This document shows positions 28,570 through 64,000 of a DNA stretch of 64,000 bases, piece by piece. Numbering within the stretch: the first letter of the stretch is position 1; every line of letters begins with the position of its first letter. The stretch spans positions 5,660,583 through 5,724,582 of the forward strand of contig CM063258.1 in assembly GCA_032158295.1 (NCBI GenBank), in the 5' to 3' direction. The position numbers and the translations under genes are program-made. The stretch is from Pycnopodia helianthoides. Taxonomy: Eukaryota; Echinodermata; Asteroidea; Forcipulatida; Asteriidae. Under the pieces are notes generated by a model. That model had not been told where the DNA came from, ran no database searches, and worked only from the letters and a program-made list of their open reading frames with translations.

Positions 28570-31500
28570 TCACTCATCAGAATTTGTTGCAAAGAACCAA
28601 ATTTCATTGTGTCTGTTCCTGAAGACAAATGGACTGTCATACCCAGCAGTATAGTACATAGTTGTATTGTATGTCTGAGTGCTGTTCAAAGCGGCTGCCA
28701 GTGCTGCTGCCTCCTTTGGAAACACAGTTTCGTTGGAAAAACCCTTGTATTCTCTGTAAGACAAAATACATTGAAATTTTTTTTAAAGTAATATGCAAGT
28801 CTTTTTTTAAATAAAACCCCTAAACACAGCACAGATATCTTGTATTTAACTTCTTCTTTTTTGCAAAAAGAAAAGTTAATGACCTCACGTTTCGACCCTA
28901 GTTGGGTCTCTAAACTGTACAAGACAAAGATATTAACACAATTTTAGGATTCCTGACAGCATTAACATTAAAACTGTGGCGCATCTATGACAAAAATAAA
29001 CAGATAATTGGAATAATTGAAATAAGGCAAAACATATGCTCAATTGAAATTAAACCTTTTTGATATTGTGACATGTGAGAAATGTATGGTTTGATTATAT
29101 CTACTTTTAAAGGTATTGTACACTTTTGGGTACACTCAAAATCAGTGTCCACATTTTGTGTGATTAAACAAAATGCATTAACAAACCAACCTGTGAAAGT
29201 TTGAGCTCAATTGGTCATCGAGGTCACGAGAAAATAGTGAAAAGAGATCTTATGTGTTTTCTGTTTTTTACAAATTATCGCGCGCGATATTACTATTGTT
29301 TTACTCGTTTCTCAGAAACGATAGCATTTTAGGCAGAAATATTTTAAGGAACCCTTTCTACCATTACTTACTTTAAATCATGTAAGTTATGTGTGAATCT
29401 GTGAACATTGTGTTTTTCGATCTTACCAATAGTGTACAGGGCCTTTAAGTAAATCAAAAGGTTATTGTTCCTTGTGGTTTGTACCATGGAAGTAGACATT
29501 TGCCCATTTTCATAGAGCTGCTTAAGCTGAAAATATTACTTGAAAATTAACAGCTAAGCAAAAATTTTGCAGAAAACCAGTCACCAATGGTACATATGAA
29601 ATAGTGTTTTGGCTGGTAACCTTTTAGTGGTAAGCAAAACTGTTGCATGCTTAGCTTAAATTTGTGCTGAAGCAGCTCAATGAAATTGGACCCGGGGTCT
29701 TGATCTTGGATTTCGATTACATACCTGACATACACTTTATGCGCCTCAAGTGTGGTTAGGGTGATTTCAGGGTTTGTTGGTTTGGGCGTGTCTTGCTGGA
29801 ACGCGAAAGGGATCATGAAGGAGAAAGTGAAGTCACTGGCACAGACAGGTCCTGCACCTGGCTTGATGCTGCATATGACTGGCACAGTCATAGGTATTTT
29901 AGTTTCTGTGTGAAAAAAAAGGACAGGTAATTAAATAATTGAACTATTGGTAATTCACAGAAGCCAACAAAGAGACACTGACTTACAGGGCCCGGAAGTT
30001 TACTTTTGAGAGGGCGGGCCATTTTCACTTTGCAAAGAGCACTTCCATTGGAAGATCTTTAAGTCTACGGGAACTTTTGAAGGGGCACGGAAGGCCAAAG
30101 ACCAGGGGCAACAGAGGCCATTGCCTCCATGGCCTTTTTCGTAATTTTAGGCCTGGACCTAGCTTAAATTGTTTTGTCCCTTGACAATATCACCAAATAA
30201 ATTTCAGTTTTCAAATGGAAGTGCACATTTACTTTCTCATAAACAATTGGCCCTGTCTTTCCAAGATGAATGAAGTAAACATAGACCCTTCGTTGGCATA
30301 TTTGTGGGAAGCATTAGTATTGGGGTGAGCACATGTAACTCTATGTTAACACAGCTCTACCATTAAAGTAAGTTGTTTTAGCTAGATTGGACGCCCGGAA
30401 CAGCCCCCCATATATAACAGAGCTGAGAGTCACTGCTGACCAAAAGATCTAAAACTAGGATCTAAATGTTAGGAGGTGTGTTAAAATGATGGCATTTCCA
30501 TCTTTTGGTGGTAACCCCTGGAGTTACAGATTTCAAGGAGCTTTTGGGAGCAGTATCCTCAGTGCAGTGCGGGGGAAAAGTACAGATCAAAGAGCATTTT
30601 AAAGGAACATTACAGAATTGGTTTTTGCTAACAAAACAGTTGCTGGCCGTGTAAGCACTTTATGTAATCCAACATATACATAAACTGACAAACCTGTAGA
30701 AGTTTGAGATCGATCGGCCATCTGGGTCACGAGAAAATAGTGAAAAACCGATTACATGTACACATTTGCATGAAATCATATAGATTCAACAAATGAATAA
30801 AACGCTCACTGAGCGATAAACTCCAATCGGAAAATTAGATTATTCATTTTTCATCAAATATGGCATTTCGGACAGAAATATTTCAAGGGATGTTTTCTAC
30901 TATCATCATCATTAGACCGTGTAAGTTTTATGTAAATCTGTGATCAAAAAGTATATTTTACAAGTTTTTTTCTCACCAATTCTGTAATGTTCCTTTAAAG
31001 ATTCAATTGGATATTTTATACTACAAATCAAAAACACTTTCGTCAATTCTCAAAAAAAAAATGCAAAATAAGTTTGAGACAGTGCTCTGGTTCTCTGAAC
31101 AATTGATTTTCACATTCATGTCAGCCATTTATTCATCGACCGCTTTTTTGAGACGATGGCCTGTCCGGCGTAAACTGTAAAGAGCCCATTGTATTGTGTA
31201 TCGCCCGTTATTGCGACAAACACAAACAATTTTCATGCTGTTTTAATCATTTTCTTGTTCAAGTGTTAACGTCCTTAGGTTATTTCCCTTACTGTTTTCG
31301 TTCTCTCCCTGGATGTAAGAGAATAACTTAGCGAATGCCTCCTTTCCAGCGTCATCATTGTCCAGCCCTGTGATTCTTGTACTAGCCCACGCAGATGGCT
31401 CATACTGACGAATGGAGTACTCCTGGAACACACACAAATGTTGTAACCTTTTGTAAGAGGTTTGAATGGATTCCTGTATTCTGGGGGACAGGTCACACAA

Positions 31501-37717: not shown

Positions 37718-39965
37718 GAGACAGTATTTATGGAGGAGCCATGCTTTAATCAAAGTGATCAACAGCGCCCTCTGTTGGCGGGTATAAACACAGATATTGT
37801 TACATCCTTCCCTTTTTAAACTTTGAGTGGGAAGTGGTAAATTTTTTGAGAAATGTTTCAAAAGAAAACTAATAAATTTAACTTTAAAATAAAGTCATAG
37901 TTTTCATGAATAAAGAAAATGTCCATAATGGAGAATATTTCAATAAAGTTGATGGCTGAAAATAAAATGATTTTAGTTAAGTTTGTTACCTTCAGTCATA
38001 CTTCATTTTTTTTTTTTTTTTTTTAAACAGAAGAAATGTGTGCACTTTTTTACAGAGTTAGGAACAGAATGGTGGTCCATTAGTCACTGATTATAATGAA
38101 GGTATTCCATATCTGCCAAAGTTGTGTTTTAGTTTGTTGATAACACTTTGGGCAGTGGTTTTGTGTAGTCGGTCCACCTCCCAAAAATTGGATTTGTAGC
38201 AGGATAAACAGTGATGAGGTACTCTTTCCCATTGAAATGAAGATCAATGCCTAGTTTTTCCCACGGTCTTTCAGGTATGTCAGGGGACATTAGTGGTAGT
38301 GGTGCCTGTGCAACTTCATTTGTCTCGGCATGTGTCACACTGTTCTATCCACTGTTTTTTTTTTCATTGTTCATTCCTGGCCAGAGAACATTTTTCTAGA
38401 GCGAAGACCACAGCTAGCATCTCTTTTTCAATTGCTGCATACCTCGTCTCTGTATCACTCGGGGCTCGACTGGCATAGGCAAGTGGTTTGCCATCTTGGA
38501 GCTCAGCTGCCCCAATGCCTCTATCGCTGGCATCAGTATGGATGACGAGATCTTTGTTAGCGTCAAAGTATTGACAGGACTGGAGCTTTAGTGATGAGTT
38601 GTTTGAGTTCATCAAAGGTTTTGTCATGGCAGGCATCCCATGACCATTGCACATCTTTCCGAGTTGGTGCATTTAGTGGCTCCATCACTTTTGAGAGATT
38701 GGGTAGGAACTTTGATAAGTAGTTTACCATACCTCTCAGTCTGTCTGCATCATCTTTTGTAGTCGGAGTTTTCATTTTCCGCACAGCTTCAATCTTTGAT
38801 GGAAGAGCCTTGAGTCCATCTTTAGAGATGATGTGACCAAGGAAAGTTAGTTCAGTTAAGGCAAAGGAGGACTTATCCTTATTTAGCACAATGCCTTTTT
38901 CCTTGCATCTTTGCAGCAGTGTGCGAACACGAGATCGTGCTCTTCATCATCTTTGCCCCATACGATGATGTCATCTGCTACGCAGCTCACTAGATCATCT
39001 AGTGCTTGGTGTAGTCTCTTCTGGAAAATCTCACTGCTCACCTTGAGACCAAACGGTAAACACTTCCATCGGTATCTACACCAGGGTGTAGCAAAGGTAG
39101 TCAGTTCACTGGATTCATCGTCTAGAGCACAGTGTAAGTATCCATCCTCCAAGTCACAGGAGGAGAAACGAGTTGCTTGGGCTAGTTCTGGTAGTATGTT
39201 GTTGAGAACAGGGAGTGAGTAATGTTCTCTTTTTTCAGTGCCTTGTTGAGAGGACCGGGGTCAATACAGATTCTGACACCTCCAGACTTCTTTTCTATAA
39301 CTGACATTTGGCTGACCCGGTCAGTCGGTTTGTCGATGACACTGATCACATCTTGCTCAACAAATTGATTAAGTTTGGCCTGCACTACCGGTTGAAGTGC
39401 TTCAAGAATATTTCTTGCAGGTCTGATCACAGGATCTGCATCTGGCATCACAGTGATGTGCACTGTCCTTCCAGGCAGCTGTGCCCATAATGACGAGTTG
39501 AATACTGTAGGGTATTCCATCACACAATTTGGCACTCGAGGACACACAGAGTGAACTGCAGCAAACTTATCATAGTTGATGGTAATGAGTCCCATCTTTT
39601 CAGCAGCTCGTCTGCCTATCAGTGGTGTGAGTGATTCCTCAACAATTACAAACTGGACTTTGTATTTCTTCTGAGTCACAGGATTTCTAATCTTCACTGC
39701 ACTTTTACCGAGAGCTGTCATGCAAGAGTTGTTCCACATCTTTAAACTGCACTCGCTCAGGTTGGATTTCAGTGACGTATTTTGAGGGTAGAAGATTCAC
39801 AGTTGCGCCACTATCAACTTGGAATTTAATGGATTGATCTTTGACCTTTGAGCTTCATACGTCTGTTTGGTTATATGCCTCGTATTTATGGAGAAGCCAT
39901 GCTTTAATCAAAGTGATTAACAGTGCCCTCTGTTGGCGGGTATAAACACAGATATTGTTACAGTA
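37718..39965 (-). mobile_element. broken Ty3/gypsy LTR retroelement
   Basis: Read on the minus strand: a protease tail (LIGRRAAEKMGLITI) and RT start (SGGVRICIDPGPLNKALKKE) at 39739-39182; the RT core (LEDGYLHCALDDES, TPWCRYRWKCLPFGLKVS, CVADDIIVWG with the catalytic DD) at 39152-38883; the thumb (KSSFALTELTFLGHIISKDG) at 38889-38563; RNase H (HTDASDRGIGAAE, EKEMLAVVFALEKC) at 38672-38364; and the start of the integrase core (ERPWEKLGIDLHFNGKEYLI) at 38338-38129. Frameshifts separate the blocks, and gag and most of the integrase are gone. The edges 39878-39965 and 37718-37805 are direct repeats beginning TGTAACAATATCTGTG on the minus strand, which I read as LTR parts. Confidence 0.85.
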
Positions 39966-47875: not shown

Positions 47876-50800
47876 TTAGATGTCATAAGATATAGTGTCA
47901 GTCAGAGCTCCAACTTCGATGTGTTGTTGTCCATCCTCCGTCGGTAAGGTGTAACGAGCCACAAACACACGGCCCTGCAACAACATTCAAAACAAAAATG
48001 GATTACAGCTTGAACGGTCTCTCCATATAACCAGGCTTGGATCCAGGGGTCGAGTCCAGAGGGTTTGAACCTCTCCCTATACTCTGGACGACTTTCCCTC
48101 CCTTTTTTTAACCATCTTTTTCCTTGGTGTAAACCTTCACATAATAATAGCTCCTAATCTAGCTACAGACCTAAATTCCGGTTACTTTTTCGCGTTTGTT
48201 TGTTTGTTTGTTTGCTTAATAGGCCTATGTGTGTGTTTTTTTTGTGTGGGGGATTTTAGTTGGGTGGTTTTTTTTTTTGGGGGGGGGGTGGGTTGGGGGA
48301 CCTATCCCTGGTTAAGTCCCTGGCTCCACACCTGCTCTCTCACTGTAGCAACTGCTCTGTACTGTTTCTCTTTAACAGTACAAATATAATTTGAAATATT
48401 TATAGTTAGTCCGTTTGTTTATGACAAATGAACCGGCTAGTTTAAATGTTGAATGTACCAAACAATTGTCAACAAAAAGCACATTCAAATCCTCTATGAT
48501 TTGTTAAATATTTTTATAATCAAAATAATTTGGGCATTTCATTAAAAAGTTAGGATTTTATCTGAAGATGTTTGAGAGTTTTCTCCTTTTAAATTATTTA
48601 TACAATGAAGTAATTGTGTTAATTTAAATATTTTTGGGGGCGGACCTCATATTTTTAACTTACACTGTGGAACAAGTCGGCATCCATGATCTGTTGCAGC
48701 AGTGTTGTAACACTTGACTGGATGTTGGTGACTGTCGGTGGACCTTGCAGGGAGGCAACATAAGCTGCCTGCCACGGATGATCATCACTGGGAACACTCA
48801 CCAATGTCATCTAAAATGGTCACATCATCAACAAAATAACACAGCAAATATAAACACCACATCAATATGAAATACAATCGATTTTCAATACATTACAATC
48901 TTGGGCTCAGTTTCACAAAGAGCCAAGATTGTTGATCGTAACTGCTAAGGAAAGTGTGATGTCACAATACAAACCGCTATGGTAACACTGTCAACTCACC
49001 TAAGGATGAATCTATTTAGTGTAGTACTTTGTAAAATCGACCCCTGGGCTTAATTTCGAAGAGCCAGATTCATACGATAATAAGTACCAAAGGCTTAAAG
49101 GAACATTACAGAATTGGTTTTTGGCTAACAAATTTGGCTAACAAAACAGTTGCTGGCAGTGTAAGCACTTTATGTAATCCACCATATACATAAACTGACA
49201 AACCTGTAGAAGTTTGAGATCGATCGGCCATCTGGGTCACGAGAAAATAGTGAAAACCCGATTACACATTTGCATGAAATCATATAGATTCAACAAATGA
49301 ATAAAACGCTCACCGAGCGATAAACTCCAATCGGAAAATTAGTAAGTCACAAGCAACCACTTAAAAATACAGTCTTGAGAACACAATTTCTTTTTAGACT
49401 TCACACATGGGCATAATGGGACCGTTTGGTAAAGGAGGCAGAGGGGATGATTTGCCCAAAATAATTAAACAGAAAAAAAAACAATTTCTCTTATAGCCTA
49501 CCGTGTCAAAAGTCAAAATTTATTTTGATGTCAATTTTGTTCTTCTTTTTCTTGCTGTGCCCGAATTTCCCCTAACTGTTTTGCCCGATTTTGGGAGTGC
49601 AGTTACCCGCCCTGCTTTCCTGGGTCATAGGCCTATGACTTCACAGAATATGCAATACAAGTGTTGTTGCTTGATTGGCGGGAAGGGCATCAGAGTCTTC
49701 CGGGTCTTTTAAAAGTGGGTTGTTAAATATTACAGAGGAAGGGAAATGACCAATACAATTTTGTGATTCGCTCAATTTCCAATAGAGAGAGTCTTCTTAT
49801 GAGTAAGGAAAAAAATACAAGTTTCTAACCTCACGTTAAAATGGTGTAAATTGCCATTGTATTCAATACCCTTCCAGTGCAAAATGTGTCAACATCCAAA
49901 ACATCTGATGACATCATTCCGAGAAAAATGGGTCTCAACATTTTTGTACAGGGATGTTTTGATTCATAACTGACTTTTCAAGGATTTCAACAACTAATGG
50001 ATCTTTACACTCCATGGAGGAATTTTTTCGTCAGTCAAAAGGTCAAATTCAAGGCCGTTTTGATTGGATATTATCGAAAGTCAGGAATGAACCAAAACAT
50101 CCCCTTACAAAAATGGTAGAGACTTTTTTCCTCAGAATGATGTCATCAGATGTTTTGGATGTTGACAAATTTTGCACTGGAAGGGTATAAGAATACAATG
50201 GCAATTTACACCATTTTGTCGTGAGACTTGAAACTTTATCCCATTCTCACTTGAGGACTCTCTCTATATGAAATTGAGTGCATCACATTGAAATTGTAAT
50301 GGTCATTTTTTCCGTCTTCTTTATAATTTGACCTACATGACTAGGTGGGGTCAACAGGGGCAGTCTGAAAGCAGTTTCTGGTAGATAGGCACAGGTCTTA
50401 ATTTCCTTGTTGCACTCGGTGCTCAGTAAGTCAGCAATTCTCATCTGTAACGAAAAAACATGAATGAAATTTAAGTTTTTCTAATTGTCACATATTCATA
50501 CAAACATCTTTTGCTCCTGGAATGGTGGAGCTCAATTAATCTAATGCAAAAAAGTCAAATCATATTTGTTAAATATTTATAACATGCATTAACTGATTTT
50601 GCTTTACCAGTTGTATACTAGCCTCTCCCATAAAATATGCCAATTACATTCGAATCACACATAATTTGTCTAGTTCAGCACAAGTGATACACTGTGGCAT
50701 CCTCAAAGTCTACCATTTTGAAACAAAAGTTGTAGAGAATTAATGCAATCTGATACCATGTGGTGTATTTTCTTACATAGGAAATGATAGGTCTGGCTGT

Positions 50801-53800
50801 AGGATGAATTTCATAGCTGCCCCTGAAATAGTCGTACAGCGCCGAGACAGATTGGTTGAAGGCCTGCTCAACATTACAGCTCACCGTCTCCTTACAAATC
50901 CACATGCCTGGTAATTGAAAGCATGACAATGGGAAGTCAATCTATAGCTTGACAAAAATGTATTTGTAAAGTTATACAGTGATAAGTTACCTACGTATCT
51001 GGGCCCAATTTCATAGAGCTATGCTTAACAGCTGATTTTGTGCTTACTGTTGCTTACTGTGGGAGTTTCTATTTCATAGCGCTGCTAACCGTAAGCTAAC
51101 TGGCCGCCCAATTTTCTTGCTCACCTGTGAAATACGCTTAATCTTAAGCAAATTGTTAGCTGCTACAGTAAGCACGAAATTTTGCTTACCATTAAGCAGA
51201 GCTATGAAATTGGCCCCTGGGCCAAGTTTCATTAAGCTGATAAAGCGCAAACATTTGCATGGTATTTCTCCTCCTTACTTATCTGATTTACTCACATTGT
51301 ATCAACCAGGCAGAGTAGGACTCCGATCTTCTGACGATAAACTTCTTTTGTCTATTCCTACAGGTTCAAAATCTCTCGGAGATAGATCCTTTTCTATAGC
51401 TGGTCCCAAACTGTACGGAACTCTATCCCCATCAACATCAGGAATGATCCTTCTATCACCATTTTCCGGAGACGTCTCAAAACATTTTTGTTCTCGTAAC
51501 CCCTGTCTTTGTCTTTTTCTTTTTCGTCTTATTTTGTACAGCGCTTTGATCTTTTTTGTCAAGGCGCTTTATAAAAACATATTATTATTATTATTATTAA
51601 GCGCTGGAAAATCTGGCAGAGCAAAAGCAGGATGCCTACCACGCTGAGTATGTAATAAATTGCTAGGTTGTGTGAGCCTAGGTTTGAAACAATACTATGA
51701 AGGGATTCAAAGTTTCCACTATTAAAGGATGGACAGTTTTTGCATTAAAAAAAATGACAACTCACTCTCATCGTAGTTCCTCTCCTCAAATGTCCCATAG
51801 GATCGACCCTTCTCATAAGATGGACAGTTGACCCCTTCGCCGCATCCACTGTCCAGGATGGTGTAATAACCAGGACTTTGTACACTGCAAATACAAGACA
51901 AACCATATCGAGACTACTGAGCACAGTGACATGAAGAAAACATCAATTCCATGTTTAGATCTGGTATGGTGATCAGGTTCGCTCAGTGGTTTCTTCCCTG
52001 ACTTCCACCTCTGTGACCCTGCTTCCAATCTGCTGGGAATGGAGCCTTGCATTTGGGTTGGGTTTTCAGTCCCTCTGACTGTGTGGGTTTTCACCAGTTA
52101 GGGTTTGGCCAACCAAATATAAAGGTGTACTGGTCACAGTGCTCTGTAGCATAACTAAGGGTGGGGGAATGTGAGGGGAGGGGGGTGTACCCCCAATGCA
52201 TGTCCATGCCCCACAGGTGTCCCCCTATTTGAAATATGGACCTTTGAGATTAAAAATTACCTGAATAAAATAATAACATTTTAAGAGCTTGTACGTTGTA
52301 TTTTCAGTATTTTTTACAACTATTTTTTTAATTTTCACACAGACGATGTATTTGTATTTACCTCCACTGCAGATTAGCTTAGAACAAAAAAAAGTAATTG
52401 ACATAAAGACAGCGCTGAAAAGGGGTTTGTTTATAATTATAAAAATCAAACGAAAACTAGTTTTAATTGGCCAGAAAAATTGGTGCATCCCTTTGTTCCC
52501 CCTAAAATATACCCTATAGTTTCAGCACTGACAGTGCTAGGCGCTATTGAGGGTCCCTTGGTTTCATTACCAGAAAATTTTAATCATAATAATTACAGGT
52601 GAAATGCTTTGTAGTGGAAAATTTGGCTTTCCTTATCCATGATATTTAGATAATATAAAAATTCATCTCCAAATAACAGCCTTTGAAAAAGTTGTTTAAC
52701 ATAATACTGAGGGTTGAAAATGTCTAGCATTCAGAAGTTCGTCCGTGAAAACAGTTGCAGATCAAGTGGACACCTTTGGTAATTGTCAAAGACCAGTCTT
52801 CTCACTTGGTGTATCTCAACATATGCACAAAATAACAAACCTGTGAAAATTTGAACTCAACTGGTCGTCGAAGTTGCGAGATAATAACGGAAGAAAAAAC
52901 ACCCTTGTCACACGAAGTTGTGTGCTTTCAGATGCTTGATGATTTCGAGACCTCACGAGAGGGAGCTGTTTCTCAGAATGTTTTATACTGTCAACAGCTC
53001 TCCATTGCTCGTTACCAAGTAAGTTTTTATGCTAACAATTATTTGGAGTAATTACCAATAGTGTCCAGTGCCTTTAACCTTGATCAAACTCTACATATCT
53101 AGGAGGCATTCAGTTGCCATTTATGTCCTCCCATCCCTCTGTTGCTGTTATGTTTACTACCAATAATTGTTGTGCAGAGATTATGTTCTGGATGTAAATA
53201 TTGCAACAATGACAAACTTATACCAATTGCAACAATGAAACATCAAGGGGCTCTGGTCATAAGGTAATACATGCATTTCAAAATTGTTCCTTAAAAATAC
53301 AGCCTGCTGATTTAATTTTAAAGATAATGGTTGTTTTCAGCCCAAAGTACCACAGTCCTCTTACCTTGGTGTGGTGCACTCAATGGCTTCAGGGATCCAA
53401 ATCTCTTTGCGATGGGGCTCGGGTCTCCATGATGCATCATAGCCTTCCAAAAAACAAATAAATAATCAAAAGATATGATTTAAAGAAAAATAAAGAGAAG
53501 AAAACTTATAGCTTTGTCAGAACAAGAAACTTTATTTCCATCCTCTAAATTGAAAACTCAAACAAAGAATACAGTCGTGTGTATGACACACAATTTTGTT
53601 GCCTTAGTATCATTTCGTTTTTTCCAGAATTTAAACAAGAATTGTCTCTTTGGGGTTTTATTTCTGTAACAAATTTCCTGCACAAATTTAACATTTGGCA
53701 AGGACTTGATAGTGTTTGCATAAAGATGAATGACTTGAGTGGGATGACTTTCTGTGTGAATCTTATCTTGTACACCTACTTGCAAAGAAGAATTCACTGG

Positions 53801-56800
53801 TACTATAACAGAGTTCACGTTTGTCCAGTTCATTGCGTAGCTCGGTCTCCTTGGCAGCAAGTACTTGGTCAGTTGTTGCATCTGTAAAAGTGATGACAAA
53901 CGCTTCCTTGGCTTCTTGTTGGATGAGTTCAACGCCATCCTGAAAAAGTAGAATAAATAGGGCATTGACCCCTTGCACAACGCGGGACGCACCTCTGCAC
54001 AATGCGGGACGCACCTCTGCACAACGCGGGACGCACCTCTTGCACAACGCGGGACGCACCTCTGCACAACGCGGGACGCACCTCTGCACAACGCGGGACG
54101 CACCTCTGCACAACGCGGGACGCACCTCTTGCACAACGCAGGACGCACCTCTGCACAATGCGTGTCCACCATTTCCACCATATTGGGAGTCAACTGCTTT
54201 GTGTACATTTTGACTCCCAAAATGGCAGACAGGATAGGCGTGTGTAAGTGCGCTGCACGTTGTGCAATGGGTCAATACTAAACAACTCATCTAGAAGCCG
54301 ATTGGCCTATGAATCCGGATATAAACACCGGCCTGATGGGCCATATTGGCTCGGGACAGACCTACTGCACAATGTGCAGCGCACTTACTATCAGCATATG
54401 AGTGTTATAAACACATTTGTTGTCGTGCATTACTGAACATAAATGGCTGACAGGATTGGCGCATGATGCACTGCGCGTTGTGCAATGGGCCAATAATTAC
54501 TTATCTAGAAGCCGATTGGCCTATGAATCCGGATATAAACACCGGCCTGATGAGCCATATTGGCTCGGGACAGACCATGACCTTACTATCAGCCTATGAG
54601 TGTTATAAACACATTTGTTGTCATGCATTACTGAAGATAAATGGCTGACAGGATTGGCGCATGTAAGTGCGCTGCGCGTAGTGCAATGGGTCAATAATTA
54701 CTTATCTAAAAGCTGATTGGCTTATGAATCCGGATATAAACACCAGCCTGATGAGCCATATTGGCTCGGGACAGACCATACCCTTACTATCAGCCTATGA
54801 GTGTTATAAACACATTTGTTGTCGTGCATTACTGAACATAAATGGCTGACAGGATTGGCGCATGTAAGTGCGCTGCGCGTTGTGCAATGGGTCAATAGTT
54901 ACTTATCTAAAAGCTGATTGGCCTATGAACCCGGATATAAACACCAGCCTGATGAGCCATATTGGCTCGGGACAGACCATGACCTTTACTATTGACCTTT
55001 GAGTGTTATAAATAAAACCGTTGCCGTGCTTTACTGCACACTTTCACTTACCATTTTCTTTACCTGTGTGCTTTTAAGTGTTTACATTTTTATGGGGAGT
55101 TGCCCATCACAAGACCATCAAACAGGACACTCAATGTGAGGGCCAAAGAAGGGGGAAAGGGGATCAAAGCAGAGGAAATCAAAATGGAGAAAGCTGACCA
55201 TTACTATTGCGTTTGAACTGGGACAGGAAGCAGGATACAGGTAGTGAGTTCATAAGTAAGGCAGTACGTGGATAAGAAGCTTATTGAGTACCACTGAGTT
55301 TTAGCTTTAGAGACAGCTACACTATAAGGATGCAAATGGGCAACAAAATGTGTTGTGTCGCCAAAGGTATGGTTAGGTGGAACAACCAGTGAAAGTCAGT
55401 TTTAAGATATTAGCAAAAAAATTGAAAATGTTGAAGCTCAAAACACAGTGTGACCTGCTCAAACAAAAGTTTCGTGTAAATTTTCCCACAGAAGAGTAAC
55501 TTTCAAAAGTTCTCTTCAAAACTTAGATTGAATAAAATCTGTAAATGTGTAGCCGATAACAAAAAAGAAAATAACAATAATCTTTTTCTTATCTTAAAAG
55601 TGAAATTTTGTATAAACTTGTCTAACACTGGTACAGAACATGATCCAATACTGAGATGTAGAACAAAGAGCCATTCAAACAGCTTTATTCCACGTACTGC
55701 AACCCTTTGGAACACTTTGCCTGGTGCATGTTTTCCTCCATCCTACAATCTAGACTGTTTTAAGAGGAATATCAATTCCTACCTTCAGCTCCCTTAAGTT
55801 ATTTTCATCTTAAATATTTTTCTTCTTGTAGCCTTTTACCTAGAGTAGCTCTCAGCCTTGTTTGGGGCAAACTTGCATACAAGAAAAACAAATAACAATA
55901 CTTCCCAGACAATGCAAATGATTTATTCAACAAATTCTTTACCTAACTTTGGGGGTTAATTCTAGATAAGGCCAAGTAAAAAAAGAAACATGTTTAGCGT
56001 CCGGGTTTCTAAAAAAAAAGGAAGGAGGAGGGGCTTTTTATTTTTAATTTTTTAATTCAAGATGGTCGCAAATCTTTTTTAAATTTCAAACATCCATTGT
56101 TTTTTCTACTGTTCAAACACACAATACATTTAAGAAACATGTTGGACAAGACATTGAACATGTCCGGACTTTTTCAAAAAGAGGAGGAGACAGGGCTCTA
56201 CTATTTTACTATTTTTCCAATTTTTTTCCAAGATGGCCGCCATGCTAAATATGGCTGGCCAAGGTATACTTATTCACAGATTTTGTGCTTTTTTAGTGTA
56301 CTGATGCAATGTATGACAAAACAAATGATTTGTATCATTTAAGTCAAATTTTCCCCTTTTTTTTCTCTCTCTCTTTTTTTCTTTTCCTTTTTTTCCCTTT
56401 TTTTTTTAAATAGTAAAAAGTTTTTTAAAAGGAGGCGGCGGCCAAAGAGGAGGCGGGCGGGGACGCTAAACATGTTAATTTTTTTACTCGGCCTAATGTC
56501 TTGTTTTTATTTTACCTCAGTTGGTTCTGGAGCACTGAGCTGTCTGTCAGCGGGAAGGTAAAACAACAGACTGTAGGTGAAGTCACACCCCTTGGGTGGG
56601 TTGTCTGTTGATTTGTGGACCAGGATCACGTCCAGAGTGGTACGGTTCATAATCAATTGTTCGGTGTTTGCTCCTACATTTGCAAGAAAATTAAGGGTAT
56701 GGTTGGTCTTTATGCCATGTGCTCTAAAGAAATCAGATAGAACTGTATGATGGTCATTATAAAAAAAGGCAGTGTTTAATTCTTTGGTATAAGTTAAAGT

Positions 56801-59800
56801 TCAAATCACCCAACTCGGGTCAATCTGAATCGATCAGCTGTTCTTAAAGGAACATTACATAATTGGTAAGAACAAAACTTGTAAAATATACTTTTTGATC
56901 ACAGATTTACATAACACCTACACGGTCTAATGATGATGATAGTAGAAAACATCCCTTGAAATACTTCTGTCTGAAACGCCATATTTGATGAGAAATGAAT
57001 AAACTAACTTTCCGATTGGAGTTTATCGCTCAGTGAACGTTTTATTCATTTGTTTAATCTATATGATTTAATGCAAATGTGTAATGGCCGATCGATCTCA
57101 AACTTCTACAGGTTTGTCAGTTTATGTATATGATGGATTACATAAAGTGCTTACACTGCCAGCAACTGTTTTTCCTTTAAGTGGTACATTTTACTGAGGA
57201 AATCCATAATATCATCAGTCAACTCTGTTCAAAATTATTGGTATGGTAAATTCATTGGGGATGTTAATTCATTGTAAAGGAAATGGGTAACAGACAGGAA
57301 TCTTCTGATGTTTGTTTTGCTGTGACAGTTTCCCCAAAATAATTATTGCAGAGTTCTTATTTTATTATCTGCACTCACTTCACACGTACACATATTACAA
57401 AGTGAATAAAACAACATGACATGATGTACAAACATTATGCACACACTGCATGCAGACGATCGAAAGTGCAAGCTGACAAATTTCATCACGTCCGATCAAT
57501 CATAGCACAGATATGGAAAGCTTACGTCACTGCACGTTTATCAAATGAAATCATTGTATCCGATGAAATCATTGTATCCGATGAAATCATCGTATCCAAT
57601 GAAATCATCGTATCCAATGTAATCATCGTATCCAATGAAATCATTGTATCCGATGAAATCATCGTATCCGATGAAATCATTGTATCCAATAAAATCATTG
57701 TATCCAATGAAATCATTGCATCCAATGAAATCATTGTATCCCATGAAATCATTGTATCCCATGAAATCATTGTATCCCATGAAATCATTGTATCCCATGA
57801 AATCATTGTATCCCATGAAATCATTGTATCCCATGAAATCATTGTATCCCATGAAATCATTGTATCAAATGAAATCATTGTATCAAATGAAATCATTGGG
57901 TTTGTAGACCAGTACCTGTCTTTATCCAGAAGGATACAGACAGGGGACCAGTCAAAGGAAGTTTTACCTTTGAAGTAACGGTAAAGTGGCATATATGCGT
58001 CATCATAGGCCTGGCTCATGTTACAGGTTCGAGTCCTCTTCATGACATACTGGCTATCAGCTAAATGGCGATGCTCAATGTTATCCTTCAATGTCTCCAA
58101 AACTTGGTAATTGGGACACTCTCGATCTGTAAAAGTAAACAAACCAAGAGAAAATGTTCTCACCATTTGAATATTTGGCAGGAAAAGAACCACTCAAAAT
58201 ACTTCAACACTTAAAGGAACATTACAGAATTGGTAATTGTAAAATTTACTTTTGGTCACAGATTTACATAAAACTTACACGGTCTAATGATGATGATAGT
58301 AGAAAACATCCCTAGAAATATTTCTGTCTGAAATGCCATATTTGATGAGAAATAAATCAAACTAATTTCCGATTGGAGTTTATCGCTCATGAGCGTTTTA
58401 TTCATGCATTTTATAACACATGCAAATTTGTAATCGGTTTTGCACTATTTTCTCGTGACCTAGATGGCCGATTGATCTCAAACGTCTACAGGTTTGTCAG
58501 TTTATGTATATGGTGGATTACATAAAGTGATTACACTGCCAGCACTGTTTTGTTAGCAAAAACCAATTCTGTAACGTTCCTTTAATGACAATCCAGATCA
58601 AAAAGTACAGGCCGCAAAAAGTCAATTTATTGTTCTATTAAAATTGTACCCTTCTTTCTTAATTTGGAGGCATTCTCTTATTCACGAAAAAATTTACGAA
58701 CCAGAAGAAGAATATGAACGCAGTTTTATTTGCAAATAAATACACTTGAACTATTGCAAACATTCAGAGTAACTAATTCATGTAGCAACATGCAACATTT
58801 AAGTCATTGTTTTTTTTTGTGTGTGTGTGTGTATTTGTTGTTATACAGCAGGCAAACAAATCAGAAGAATGTAAGCATTACTTATTTTTGGAAAACAAAC
58901 TCTAAATGTGAGATCCAAAGCAGAGCCTACATTATTTCTTTAAGAAAACAAAACTTGTGTATTTTGTTTAATGCGATCACCTTTTTCTAGAAACTTGAGT
59001 TTCAATTCAATAACTTTTAAAGTTTTTACTTGTGAATAATCATATTGTTTTGTGCTCCGAAGAAGAGCGTAAGACTCTGTGCAATTCTTCCAAGCACACA
59101 AAGTACTTATTTCCAGTAATAGCGTAAGCAAAAAATGGCTCCTTACTAAAGAAATATGCATTACTGTTCCCCTTTTGCTGCTAGAATTACCCAAAAGACA
59201 CGTTTCCCCATTCCCATGCAGAATTTAACCTTCCTGCAAGGATTTATGGATGGCAGAAAACCACTGCAACTTCAACACTCAGTTTTCTTGAAACATAAAT
59301 TTTGAACATTAATTGCTTCTGCCCCTTTCTCCAGAACTTTTTGTTAGGTCCTTCTTCTTGGCACACAACAATATGTATATATATATATATATAGAAACTA
59401 AATTTCGGGCACACTGTTGATATAGATATATATATATATATATATTTATAAATTAATTTTACCTAAGACAAATATTTGTCATCAAAATAACTTAACCCGA
59501 TCAAAGTTCAAACACAAAAAATTAAAGTCCACATCCCTTAACCTTGTTTATCTTTAGCTAAACAACACAACAATCAAAACAATGGCAACAGATACAGGTC
59601 CAGGTTAACACACATCGTTGATTGATTAACTCCTATCAGCTGACCTCCTGGCCAGCATCTGAGAGTGAACAAACCGAGTCATGGGCCCAATTTCATAGAG
59701 ATGCTTAACGGCCAATTTTGTGCTTACTGTGCGAGTTTCCATTTCATAGCGGTGCTAACCATAAGCGAACGAAAAGGCATGCTAACCTTCCAGTGCTTAC

Positions 59801-62800
59801 TGTATGAAAATGAATGATGTAACAATGCAAATCCATGGTGAAAGCTCAGGCTGGCCGCCCACTTTTTTTACTAATCCTGTGAAATACGCTTACGCTTTAG
59901 CAAATTTTTCTGCCACAGTTAAAGGAACATTACAGAATTGGTAAGAAACAAACTTGTAAAATATACTTTTTGATCACAGATTTACATAAAACTTACACGG
60001 TCTAATGATAATGATAGTAGAAAACATCCCTTGAAATATTCCTGTCTGAAATGCCATATTTGATGAGAAATGAATAAACTAATTTTCCGATTAGAGTTTA
60101 TCGCTCAGTGAGCGTTTTATTTTTGTTGAATCTATATGGTTTCATGCAAATATGTAATCGGCTTTTCACTATTTTCTTGTGACCCAGATGGCCGATTAAC
60201 TGAAACTTCTACAGGTTTGTCAGTTTATGTATATGGTGGATTACATAAAGTGCTTACACTGCCAGCAACTGTTTTGTTAGCAAAAACTGATTCTGTAATG
60301 TTCCTTTCTGCAGCGCTATGAAATTGGGCCCTGATGTGTGATTAGAAAGAAGTATTCTTCATCCCCATAAAAAAATAGGCCTATTAGTAGGAAAGCATTT
60401 AAACAAAAGGATTCATTTTAAAGCTTTCAGTTTTGTTGATCTCATTCACCTGACGTGATCATCACACTAATATTGGTTGCACCATTCTAGGAGTCAATGT
60501 TATTGAGGGTTATACAATAATAATAATAATAATAATAATACACAGTTCTTTTATAGCACATAACACATTACAGGATAGCATGTCCCTATGCGCTTTACAT
60601 AGAGAGGAAAAAATTACAAGAAAAAGTAATGCAGATAAGAAAATCCACTTAGAAGCAAAAAAGTACATGTAGTGTTGGACACTGAGTTCATGGGTGTACA
60701 CTTTTAACATTGAATAAATATGTTTTAAGAGAAATCTTGAACTTGTTTAAATCATTGTGATTTCTCATGGAATCTGGAAGTGCATTCCATAAAACTGAGG
60801 AGGCGTGGGTAAAAGAACGCTCACCGTAAGTTTTAGTTGAGGTGGGAGGGACAATGAATAATGCTAGTGCGCACTTTAGGTGATGCAGGGTTTACACACT
60901 GTTGACCCCCACAATGTCAAACATGGCAGAAGTAACCCCTGGTGTGAATTAGGTGCAAGGGGATGGTAGGTATTAACATAAATATTATTCTTTATATAAC
61001 ACCCAAGCAGATCCTTGCCATTTGATTGGAGGATTGTCCGTCACGGATAGCAAATAAACGTACCATTGCACGCTACGTCATTCACCGTGCATCTTTCGTT
61101 TCATTCACCGTGCATTTTTCGTTCCATCCGATTTGTTATATTGCACGGTGCGTACCACATCATTGCGTGCGCGTGTCTTTGATAATGCAGCAGTACAGTT
61201 ATACTGCAAGGCATACTACAATACAGCGCCTGCGTGTCTCAAAATAGAAGTACAGAACGCACTTGGTCACTGGTGAATCCAAACAAGCCGAACCAAAAGA
61301 AATGGGTGTAATATCACAATTAAATACTGTACGCTTTGTTTGTTTTGAAAGTTGTATCCTCCAATCAAAATTACAAAGATCTACTTGGATGTTACATAAA
61401 ACAAATAATGAATGTTTTTCATTCGTGCAATAGTGAGAATATTTCATTCGTTGAAAGATGGAATGTTCCATTCAACTCGGACTCCGCCTCGTTGAATGGA
61501 ACATTCCACCTTTCAACTCATGAAAATATTCGCACCATTGCACTCATAAACATTCATTATTTGTATACTATACCAGAAGCAAATTAACATCTAATATATT
61601 GCTGCCGTATCGCTGCTAAAATATAGGATTTGAACTGCCTCTTCCTACCAGGCAAAATTGGTGGTCTAGAATGGCAGAGGTCGTGGGTTCGATTCCCACA
61701 CAAGAAATATGCCTGTGAATTTTTGTTCAACAGGACTTGGGTATACAGTGCTTTACACATTGGTATATGGGTAAAACATAAATATTATGGGTCAAAAGTT
61801 TTAAAACAAAACTTTCTTGCCCTAAACAATTAGTATCTTTACAATTATTTTTTAAAAGTACATGTAGCAATGTATTGAAACTCAAGGAACATGAAAACTA
61901 GTCAACAGTATTGCATTGATTTTTGTTTTCAAGGGAAAAAGACCTGCAGGGTCCAACTTCATTAAGCTGTTTAGCAGAAAATAGTGCTCAACTTATTTCT
62001 TTGCTAAGCGAAAAATGAGTGGGGTACCAGTCTCAACAATGTAAACTTTACAGAATGTTGGCTGGTAGCCAGTTTCTAGTAAGCAATATTTTTCTGTGCT
62101 TAGCAATTTTTCGTGCTTACAGGCTTTACTAAATTGGGCCCAGGGCCATATTTCATTAAGCTTGTAAGCACAACAAAATTGCTAAGCACAGAAAATCATG
62201 CTTAGCAGAAACAGGTTACCAGTCAAACTTACATAAAGTTTACACAATTGTGACTGGTGCCCAATTTTTTATTTACTTTTTTTTTTGCTTAGCAAAGAAA
62301 TTTGCTAAGCAGTGTTTTCTGCTCAACAGGTTTATAAAATTCGGCCCAGGACAAGACAAAACAGGAGAAGTTTACCTCTGTAAAGGCAGGGAGGAAAGGT
62401 TTTCTTAACACACTTGGGCTGCTTAGCACTTGGGTCCATGCGCACAAGCACCTCATTGTGACGATCCACAACCAGTGAAGATGGCCTACAAATAAATGAA
62501 AATAAATTCAACCAGAAAGGACAGGGAAATTGTTAACAGTATGGTACCTTAGGGAATAATTTCAGGAAAAAACAAACAGTTTATTTAATTTGTTTATTTA
62601 TATATTACTAATTACATTGTTTAAAAAAAAATTGGGGGGGGTTACTTAATTCAAACATTACAGAATTGGTAAGAAAAAAACTTGCAAAGTATACTTTTTG
62701 ATCACAGATTTACAAAAAACTTACACGGTCTAATGATGATAGTAGAAAACATCCTTTGAAATATTTCTGTCTGAAATGCCATATTTGATGAGAAATGAAT

Positions 62801-64000
62801 AAACTAATTTTCCGATTGGAGTTTATCGCTCAGTGAGCGTTTTATTCATTTGTTGAATCTATATGATTTCATGCAAATGTGTAATCGGTTTTTCACTATT
62901 TTCTAGTGACCCGGATGGCCGATCAATCTCAAACTTCTACAGGTTTGTCAGTTTATGTGTATGGTGGATAACATAAAGTGTTTACCCTGCCAGCAACTGT
63001 TTTGTTAGCAAAAACCAATTCTGTAATGTTCCTTTAAATACTCACACAAACCCAAATAAAGCAGTTTGAAAGTTTGGGCTACCCTATAGAGCAAAGGATG
63101 AAAAAAAAGTAAGCCAAATAAATGAATGAAGACAGTGGCTTGATTCGCTTGAACTCACTTATCATAAACCTCTATAGCAAAGGAATCTGTGGTCACGTAA
63201 TCCTCCTGTTCTTTATTCAAGTAAGATCTGAGCTCCTGAAGCTGTTGGACATTGAGGAAATCAAAGGTGTACCCACTGAACTTCATGGCAAAGAGAGTGG
63301 AGGCTGGCTCATCCACAACAACTACCTGCAGTTTATAAAAATGATCATTCAGAGGTGCAATGCAAGACATACAAAGATTTTTCAAACAGAGGAGGAGCTT
63401 TTATAAAGTGATTTCAGTGTTTAAGAAACTTTTTCTGTTTAAACCTTCACGGCAGATTATCTAATAAAAAGAAGCAAATAGTATAACAAGAGTGCTGAAA
63501 AGGGGCTTAAGAAAAACGCAAACGACTACAGTTTTAATTGGCCAGAAGTGCCCTCTAGAAAAAATTGGTGCACCCCCTGTGCCTCCTAAAATTGTAACCT
63601 TGTTTTCGATGCTGGGGGGGGGGTGCATAATCAGTTACAAAAAGCCTCCCCATATATATATTTAATAACACTCCCCTCATAAGTAGTACATGTTTTCCTG
63701 CAATGATTTTATGAATGTTATTGGAAACTTCAAATTACAATTTGGCATCAATCATTATTTTCCAAGTTAAAAACGAGGGCCTTCTCTGGAGAAACATTTC
63801 CAAAAAAGATGACTGGTGCTCTTGTATACTGACTTAACACAAATATAATCTTTCAGGATTGTGATATTGATAACAATTGGAAGAAAGGTAAATACAAATT
63901 TTACACTATGATTTAACATCTTCTTACATTATTATCCAAAGGCTGAGGGATGGTAGATTTGGGATCAAACGGTACAAAGTAGGAGAAGGTGTAGTCTTGA
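47876..64000 (-). CDS. tandem multi-SOUL-domain protein (3' part; at least three domains; 5' end outside window)
   Basis: Twelve minus-strand exons: 64000-63928 (partial), 63325-63159, 62485-62376, 58126-57968, 56673-56516, 53939-53780, 53443-53365, 51884-51766, 50907-50777, 50444-50337, 48810-48664 and 47974-47876 (stop TAA). All eleven junctions match in phase, leaving 502 codons without a stop. Residues 1-97 are the C-terminal part of domain 1 (DYTFSYFVPF, ELRSYLN, RHNEVLVRM). Residues about 120-297 are domain 2 (CPNYQVLET, YMPLYRYFKG, CDFTYSLLFYLPADRQ, ELRNELDK, RKEIWIPE). Residues about 320-502 are domain 3 (CPSYEKGRSYGTFEERNYDE, ALYDYFRGSY, CAYLPETAFRLPLLTPP, AAYVASLQGPPTVTNIQS). These line up block by block with the two neighbouring single SOUL proteins. 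Domains 2 and 3 have lost the MTxPV strand consensus, so haem binding is doubtful. Many Cys suggest secretion. The ends of the protein outside the window are unknown. Confidence 0.85.
49095..49342 (-). mobile_element. TTAA-type MITE, subfamily A copy 6, truncated
   Basis: Left TTAA-AGGAACATTACAGAATTGG is intact, but the element stops after CCAATCGGAAAATTAG, losing about 150 bases including the right end. A small duplication (TTTGGCTAACAAA) lies near its start. It is in an intron of the tandem SOUL gene. Confidence 0.85.
49735..50328. mobile_element. large foldback element, about 230-bp arms, against an exon
   Basis: TGACCAATACAATTTTGTGA, AATAGAGAGAGTC, AAATGGTGTAAATTGCCATT and CCAAAACATCTGATGACATC at the left are mirrored in reverse order at the right, ending AATTGTAATGGTCA. 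The right edge lies only a few bases beyond the donor of the exon ending at 50337. Confidence 0.85.
50999..51232. mobile_element. palindromic MITE of the TTCATAGAGC family, copy 3
   Basis: GGGCCCAATTTCATAGAGCT at the left, AGAGCTATGAAATTGGCCCC at the right. It abuts the LINE tail that follows. Confidence 0.8.
51246..51600 (+). pseudogene. LINE reverse-transcriptase C-terminal remnant
   Basis: HLHGISPPYLSDLLTLYQPG, then LRSSDDKLLLSIP and GDRSFSIAGPKLYGTL are the typical last part of CR1/L2-type RT. It ends in GCGCTTTATAAAAACATATT and a TTATTATTA tail. The 176-residue frame is just this fragment plus flanks. It lies in an intron of the tandem SOUL gene, in antisense. Confidence 0.85.
52764..53077 (-). 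mobile_element. TTAA-type MITE, subfamily C copy 2
   Basis: The right end CAATAGTGTCCAGTGCCT-TTAA is intact and the left end is trimmed to AAGTGGACACCTTTGG. The GAGACCTC palindrome of copy 1 is mostly deleted. Confidence 0.8.
53971..54165. repeat. 22/23-bp GC-rich minisatellite, about nine copies
   Basis: The unit is CACCTCTGCACAACGCGGGACG, with an extra T in some copies. It ends about 30 bases from the acceptor of the exon starting at 53939. It opens all frames and creates the 220- and 175-residue reading frames, which are not proteins. Confidence 0.95.
54221..55015. repeat. about 200-bp tandem repeat, four copies
   Basis: The unit contains AATGGCTGACAGGATTGGCG, GTAAGTGCGCTGCGCGTTGT, GAAGCCGATTGGCCTATGAA, GGATATAAACACCGGCCTGA and GAGTGTTATAAACACATTTG. 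Copies begin near 54221, 54440, 54641 and 54839. The AATGGCAGACAGGATAGGCG start joins directly to the minisatellite on the left. It is in an intron of the tandem SOUL gene. Confidence 0.9.
55528..55797 (+). pseudogene. non-LTR reverse-transcriptase C-terminal remnant
   Basis: KSHSNSFIPRTATLWNTLPG, then YNLDCFKRNINSYL and a stop is the end of a jockey/RTE-like RT (pattern SF-PRT--WN-LP). It differs from the CR1/L2-like tails elsewhere in the window. It lies in an intron of the tandem SOUL gene. Confidence 0.75.
56844..57180 (+). mobile_element. TTAA-type MITE, subfamily A copy 7
   Basis: TTAA at both ends. Two internal losses: the GGTTTTTCACTATTTTCTCG block, and the GTTAGCAAAAACC block near the right end. 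Confidence 0.85.
57541..57897. repeat. 18-bp minisatellite, about 20 copies
   Basis: The unit is GATGAAATCATTGTATCC with sub-variants (CCGAT, CCAAT, CCCAT, CAAAT) grouped in blocks, so copies spread locally. A length of 18 without stops opens several frames on both strands (for example NEIIVS repeats). It starts about 70 bases from the donor of the exon ending at 57968. Confidence 0.97.
58211..58585 (+). mobile_element. TTAA-type MITE, subfamily A copy 8
   Basis: TTAA-AGGAACATTACAGAATTGG at the left, AATTCTGTAACGTTCCT-TTAA at the right. It starts 85 bases upstream of the exon beginning at 58126, in the preceding intron. Confidence 0.88.
58586..59680. other. intron of the tandem SOUL gene, no other feature
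   Basis: AT-rich, with two TA microsatellites at 59370-59391 and 59424-59445. No exon or large foldback was recognised. Confidence 0.5.
59682..60333. mobile_element. palindromic MITE (TTCATAGAGC family) split by a nested A-type MITE
   Basis: The outer left end is GGGCCCAATTTCATAGAG and the outer right end GCGCTATGAAATTGGGCCC. The A-type element at 59919-60307 sits between them, after CCACAG, and interrupts the right arm. Confidence 0.8.
59919..60307 (+). mobile_element. TTAA-type MITE, subfamily A copy 9 (nested)
   Basis: TTAA-AGGAACATTACAGAATTGG at the left, ATTCTGTAATGTTCCTT at the right. It is inside an older palindromic MITE, which gives the order of insertion. Confidence 0.88.
60510..60849 (-). 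pseudogene. LINE reverse-transcriptase C-terminal remnant
   Basis: The minus strand, 60849 to the TGA at 60690-60688, encodes TKTYGERSFTHASSVLWNAL, then LNKFKISLKTYLFNV. The 3' tail includes AGCGCATAGGGACATGC and ends in a TTATTATTA run (60518-60541). It is the same class as the tails at 4284 and 51246. Confidence 0.8.
61396..61578. repeat. foldback element, about 75-bp arms
   Basis: AATGAATGTTTTTCATTCG and TGGAATGTTCCATTCAAC at the left are mirrored by GTTGAATGGAACATTCCA and AACATTCATTATTTG at the right, around a short loop (TCGGACTCCGCC). Confidence 0.8.
61600..61800 (+). repeat. tRNA-headed SINE (fourth type), copy 2, internally deleted
   Basis: It shares AGGATTTGAACTGCCTCT, GGTCGTGGGTTCGATTCCCA and GTATACAGTGCTTTACACAT with 32390-32615. 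About 25 bases of the A-box region are missing. Confidence 0.7.
61949..62350. mobile_element. two palindromic MITEs (TTCAT family) side by side
   Basis: The first is 61949-62143 (GGGTCCAACTTCATTAAGCT to TTACTAAATTGGGCCC). The second, 62143-62350, starts AGGGCCATATTTCATTAAGC and ends TTATAAAATTCGGCCC. Both are rich in TTGCTAAGCA words. The second ends about 25 bases beyond the donor of the exon ending at 62376. Confidence 0.7.
62650..63037 (+). mobile_element. TTAA-type MITE, subfamily A copy 10
   Basis: The left end is degraded (TTCAAACATTACAGAATTGG) and the right end is intact (AATTCTGTAATGTTCCT-TTAA). It is in the intron between the exons at 63159 and 62485 of the tandem SOUL gene. Confidence 0.85.

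Follow-up and report, generated by a model that had tools for sequence, protein, structure and literature searches.

The question raised by this locus is whether a chain of short exons on the minus strand of the Pycnopodia helianthoides genome codes for a single protein with several SOUL domains and, if so, what such a protein may do. The window, that is, the whole stretch of 64,000 nucleotides analysed, corresponds to C16:5660583-5724582 of a 479-Mb genome in 742 contigs, and positions above 64000 continue its numbering into the flanking DNA of the contig. The gene, designated A, codes for four SOUL domains (D1 to D4) versus one in each of two adjoining SOUL genes. Its 12 exons in the window, all on the minus strand, are bordered by AG at each of the 11 acceptors and by GT at each of the 11 donors. 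Joined in phase they give 502 codons followed by TAA without any internal stop; the in-phase join into 502 codons had been stated in the original prediction, made from the sequence alone. That prediction had also placed part of the gene outside the window, and indeed the first window exon extends to 64076 and further exons reach 73095. Its estimate of at least two and a half SOUL repeats was right as to the repeats but too low as to their number, because gene A leaves the window: D3 and D4 lie completely inside it and D2 for the most part, D1 being wholly upstream.

In the order of transcription, the exons in the window begin with D2b (64000-63928 in the window, 64076-63928 as a whole), which carries the middle strands of D2 and ends at a GT donor in phase 0. 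D2c (63325-63159, AG/GT, phase 0 to 2) encodes the second half of this domain, and D3a (62485-62376, phase 2 to 1) its last strand (RHNEVLVRMD) and a Cys-containing linker toward D3. The beginning of D3 is found in D3a2 (58126-57968, phase 1 to 1), its middle in D3b (56673-56516, phase 1 to 0), its second half in D3c (53939-53780, phase 0 to 1) and its final strands (HRKEIWIPEA) in D3c2 (53443-53365, phase 1 to 2). A linker and the beginning of D4 follow in D4a (51884-51766, phase 2 to 1), the first helix in D4a2 (50907-50777, phase 1 to 0), the middle in D4b (50444-50337, phase 0 to 0), the second half in D4c (48810-48664, phase 0 to 0) and the end of D4 with the TAA stop in D4c2 (47974-47876), which is 93.75% identical to the end of the Asterias amurensis protein P0002. 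On the same strand in the flanking DNA lie D2a (65586-65309), D1c (66830-66667), D1b (68763-68615), D1a (70572-70370), a linker exon revealed by the A. amurensis protein (72019-71939) and a leader exon (73095-72904) that reads YRFLIVLALCGHLAHGTA. A direct join of the leader exon to D1a was ruled out by a phase mismatch, the linker exon sitting between them. No stop codon separates the SOUL domains in the joined reading. Three minisatellites were observed in introns of gene A, at 57539-57898 (18 bp x 20), 53974-54162 (22 bp x 8.5) and 54384-55040 (201 bp x 3.3).

A Pfam search with a 792-residue part of the product gave SOUL (PF04832) four times (E 5.7e-97), and no other module at E up to 10. 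Each domain exceeded the cut-off of 27 bits, with 93.2 for D1, 108.5 for D2 (E 4.9e-31), 100.4 for D3 (E 1.5e-28) and 46.6 for D4 (E 5e-12). These scores bear out the earlier assignment to SOUL, which had been made by motif comparison, while the accompanying description of a lost core consensus proved too strong, even for D4. D4 is strongly diverged, with 15-19% identity to its three sister domains and to HEBP2. When D2 was compared by sequence with solved structures, as the sole query domain, HEBP2 (4ayz) was matched at E 3e-13 and HEBP1 at E 1.1e-4. In the predicted structure a SOUL barrel is indicated for D3, the only domain on which SOUL proteins stood among the 50 VIA-align matches listed. 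The models of D1, D2 and D4 have the correct order of strands and helices with no SOUL protein among the 50 matches listed, a number that one domain can fill, and for D4 the listed fold matches include GyrI-like proteins. The repeat blocks of the original prediction correspond, in order, to most of D2, to D3 and to D4.

A homologue search with the 792-residue part returned seven proteins, four named as uncharacterized and three without name. P0001 (885 residues) and P0002 from A. amurensis (883 residues) are 85 and 80% identical to the query over 100% of its length and contain four SOUL stretches each, as does LOC119734374 of Patiria miniata (P0003, 861 residues, 47% identity). The exon chain of gene A is not due to chance, because the 792-residue part aligns full-length, exon by exon, to both P0001 and P0002. 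P0004, P0005 and P0006, the last being LOC117303083 of Asterias rubens, have 676-691 residues, 60-62% identity over 74-75% of the query and three SOUL stretches each; the protein of the crinoid Antedon mediterranea (P0007, 768 residues) shows 29% identity over 66% and also has three, and identities to its domains range from 24 to 31%. Judged by these identities, the genome is likely that of a sea star closer to Asterias than to Patiria. The records of P0001, P0004 and P0005 measure 5,644, 2,229 and 4,064 bases, and they are likely transcripts because multi-SOUL genes span about 11-25 kb in this genome. An alignment-based search, in which the roughly 8,000 candidates with most shared words were scored, gave five matches, none of them new, and did not return P0003 and P0007, which were in the query; a search with the crinoid protein, of the same scope, returned only itself. 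No sea urchin protein was returned by the homologue searches, which does not show absence from sea urchins, sea cucumbers or brittle stars.

The extra Cys residues that had been noticed were confirmed, 16 being present in the 792-residue part. Their number per domain is 2/2/6/6 in gene A, A. amurensis and P0001, 2/3/6/7 in Patiria, 2/2/6 in the three sea star-type proteins with three SOUL domains, and 4/6/6 plus one before the first domain in the crinoid. In the domain alignment, Cys occupies columns 11, 45 and 105 in every one of the 13 D3 and D4 rows, columns 39 and 113 in all five D4 rows, columns 180 and 214 in all eight D3 rows, and column 18 in 15 of 15 D1 and D2 rows. By their register, the pairs 39-113 and 45-105 would fit two bonds between adjacent antiparallel strands, and pairing within domains would give one, one, three and three bonds. 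In addition, N-glycosylation sequons occur in seven of seven homologues, and the best 12-residue mean hydrophobicity of the leaders is 2.1-2.4. As the hydrophobic leader, the conserved Cys sets and the sequons occur together, the protein is predicted from its sequence to be likely secreted and to work outside cells. We name the group the echinoderm multi-SOUL family, having a leader, three or four SOUL domains and Cys in the scheme 2/2/6(/6). Gene A fits it, and five of the seven homologues show it exactly, the Patiria and crinoid proteins having the deviating Cys numbers given above.

The origin of the chain was studied with a maximum-likelihood tree of 34 domain rows (supports are ultrafast bootstrap / Shimodaira-Hasegawa-like approximate likelihood ratio test). 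D1 formed one group (97/98), as did the sea star D2 (97/92), and D1 with D2 and D3 with D4 were sister pairs (99/99 each). The second crinoid domain grouped with D3 (92/83) and the third with D4 (86/67), the first falling outside D1 and D2. Since crinoid domains 2 and 3 group in this way, a chain of the form D(1/2)-D3-D4 is likely older than the crinoid/sea star split, and D1 and D2 likely stem from a duplication on the sea star branch that preceded the Patiria/Asterias split. These groups were stable when each crinoid row was dropped in turn, the remaining D3 and D4 placements keeping 82-90 / 52-83, although branch lengths of 1.4-1.5 for the crinoid D3 and D4, and a warning by the tree program that long branches meet at the D4 join, limit trust in the tree. 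Intron positions agree in part with the tree. A phase-0 intron lies at alignment columns 129-132 in all four domains (in D3 at 129, beside a gap), whereas the five single-SOUL genes lack it and are interrupted in phase 2 at column 152. At columns 72-78, D1, D2, D3 and one single gene examined have an intron in phase 1 in common; it is missing from D4, which has one at column 91 in phase 0, and D3 and D4 carry additional introns of their own.

Solved relatives of the SOUL fold bind flat or bulky hydrophobic ligands. The function that we tentatively favour, giving it not quite an even chance, is that of a secreted, disulfide-locked carrier whose four SOUL domains would have pockets for ligands that are flat and hydrophobic, among them haem, porphyrins and similar amphipaths. 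The predicted signal peptide would send the chain out of the cell, disulfides would lock the barrels, and their pockets would hold such amphipaths, haem or porphyrin being the first candidate. Several molecules of ligand would be bound per chain, in body fluid or in the gut, and by analogy sequestration, as in nutritional immunity, would be the likeliest use. The original prediction, a secreted scaffold or binding protein derived from a haem-binding fold, is supported, with the SOUL domains established, secretion likely and the function one that we infer.

Several observations weigh against this proposal. No start exon was located for gene A, the leader exon has no in-frame ATG in copy A, and protein starts vary, P0001 beginning MFLSQYRF and P0005 MFFYLLFPLLFLQYRF. 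The start codon is likely in an unseen exon because the A. amurensis protein begins MYRFLIV; with a start of that type the model has 885 residues. Over 19 residues, the peak of hydrophobicity in P0001 and P0002 falls inside D1 and not in the leader, and column 105 is also Cys in three of the five single-SOUL genes, so not every Cys is specific to the chain. The structure model is modest (mean predicted local distance difference test, pLDDT, 61.7; predicted template modelling score 0.34) and uninformative on domain packing, and that of the crinoid protein (mean pLDDT 50.6) is too weak for use. In a passage of PMC6321638, the haem ligand of mouse SOUL is given as His42. At this position His occurs in four of the eight D3 rows and in no D1, D2 or D4 row, which makes 4 of 28 multi-SOUL rows in all, and it occurs in none of the five single-SOUL genes; a His-ligated haem site of this type is therefore not conserved in the chain. 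Searches of open-access papers on SOUL and HEBP proteins gave no pocket residues for HEBP1.

The missing His42, absent from 24 of the 28 domain rows, would also suit a secreted structural or adhesive scaffold in which the barrels are rigid beads that lost their pockets, with disulfides and glycans giving stability. The strong divergence of D4 and the fact that Cys residues are the best-conserved feature point the same way. However, D1 to D3 remain near the SOUL profile (93-109 bits), SOUL is the sole module that Pfam detected, and loss of His42 does not prove loss of the pocket, as haem binding by HEBP1 involves no His ligand. We regard such a scaffold as possible but somewhat unlikely. We consider it doubtful that the protein serves immunity in the gut or coelomic fluid, as an effector or in recognition, with SOUL surfaces that attach to microbes or to other proteins and not to small molecules. 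Tandem arrays with copies in differing states, as seen here, are common in immune families. The immune use is proposed by analogy with sea urchin soul1, an echinoderm SOUL-domain gene tied to gut immunity: in larvae treated with IL17R1 morpholinos, soul1 is reported to be reduced (PMC5457136), which indicates dependence on IL17 signalling, and a review considers iron limitation as a possible reason for the soul1 link (PMC5660111). However, neither orthology to gene A nor the domain number of soul1 is established, which also counts against the carrier proposal, the sequence gives no sign of microbe binding, and D3 and D4 are better conserved towards Patiria (57 and 51% identity) than D2 (39%), with D1 at 49%. 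A haemopexin-like scavenger built by echinoderms from SOUL barrels, a secreted, disulfide-locked, four-pocket chain with tandem gene copies that would clear coelomic fluid or gut of haem or porphyrins and withhold these from microbes, appears more doubtful still. It is quite improbable that the protein is an intracellular haem chaperone like HEBP1 or HEBP2 that gained extra domains: these two are the best solved-structure matches of D2 by sequence, but the likely signal peptide, the even, conserved Cys sets and the sequons of all homologues argue against it. Finally, a false join, of separate single-domain genes or through an assembly artefact, to which at least five single-SOUL genes in the genome and frame breaks in two tandem copies might point, was rejected as already contradicted by the in-phase joins without stops, by three further records with a four-domain chain, two of them from named sea stars, by the crinoid chain of three domains, and by the common phase-0 intron.

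Upstream of gene A and on the same strand, tblastn identified exon by exon three further genes of the three-SOUL kind (loci L009-L015 and L019-L020, C16 positions 85493-143916): copy B (105580-85493), with a frame break in D1b, copy C (124135-112859) and copy D (143916-131341), with breaks in D2b and D2c. The frame breaks may mean pseudogenes or assembly errors. No match to D4 was found in copies B-D, and no further copy in the flanking DNA up to 211818. A 169-base stretch is 98% identical between introns of copies A (72306-72138) and C (123826-123658), with no flank match reported, and would be a mobile element or the result of gene conversion. A Pfam SOUL search of the genome, with 30 candidates scored, gave 17 matches, which is a lower bound. 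Two of the single-SOUL genes lie inside the window: a HEBP2-like gene at about 28570-31420 on the minus strand (three exons seen, PDB match E 2e-32, sharing the phase-2 intron of the other single genes), and a HEBP-like gene on the plus strand from 40039 to past 43070, its exons read by eye, with a Lys/Glu-rich insert in the first part. Two adjoining single-SOUL genes and one more were located elsewhere (C15:16399368-16411175 and C17:2971973-2974210; L016, L017 and L018). At about 37980-39875 on the minus strand, a reading by eye suggests a broken element of the Ty3/gypsy type with reverse transcriptase and RNase H.

SOUL proteins are widespread, and their cellular role is called poorly understood in a passage of PMC6321638. 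No account of a multi-SOUL protein appeared among the results listed for searches of an open-access library, and by word count the terms 'SOUL' and 'heme-binding' are absent from one starfish proteomics paper (PMC9630195). Here a lineage with the SOUL fold likely moved it outside the cell, chained it by duplication, set it with Cys and, according to the tree, kept it since before the crinoid/sea star split. Such a chain is a natural experiment on the purpose of the SOUL pocket, and the gene is a candidate behind the link between a SOUL gene and gut immunity in sea urchin larvae.

HEBP2, or SOUL (PDB 3r8j, 4ayz), has one domain and no known leader, unlike the gene A protein with its four domains and likely leader, and its His42 is not retained in D1, D2 and D4. 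HEBP1, or p22HBP (PDB 7oon, haem-bound), likewise has one domain against the four of gene A. It is described as cytosolic in part of PMC6321638, whereas the gene A chain is likely secreted. The GyrI-like or BmrR-type effector-binding domains (1jyh, 1bow, 5kax) are bacterial; GyrI-like entries stand among the fold matches listed for D4, sequence similarity not being shown. The closest systems are the echinoderm proteins themselves: those of A. amurensis, Patiria, A. rubens and Antedon have a hydrophobic start, four or three SOUL domains (three in A. rubens versus four in gene A) and nearly the same Cys scheme as gene A.
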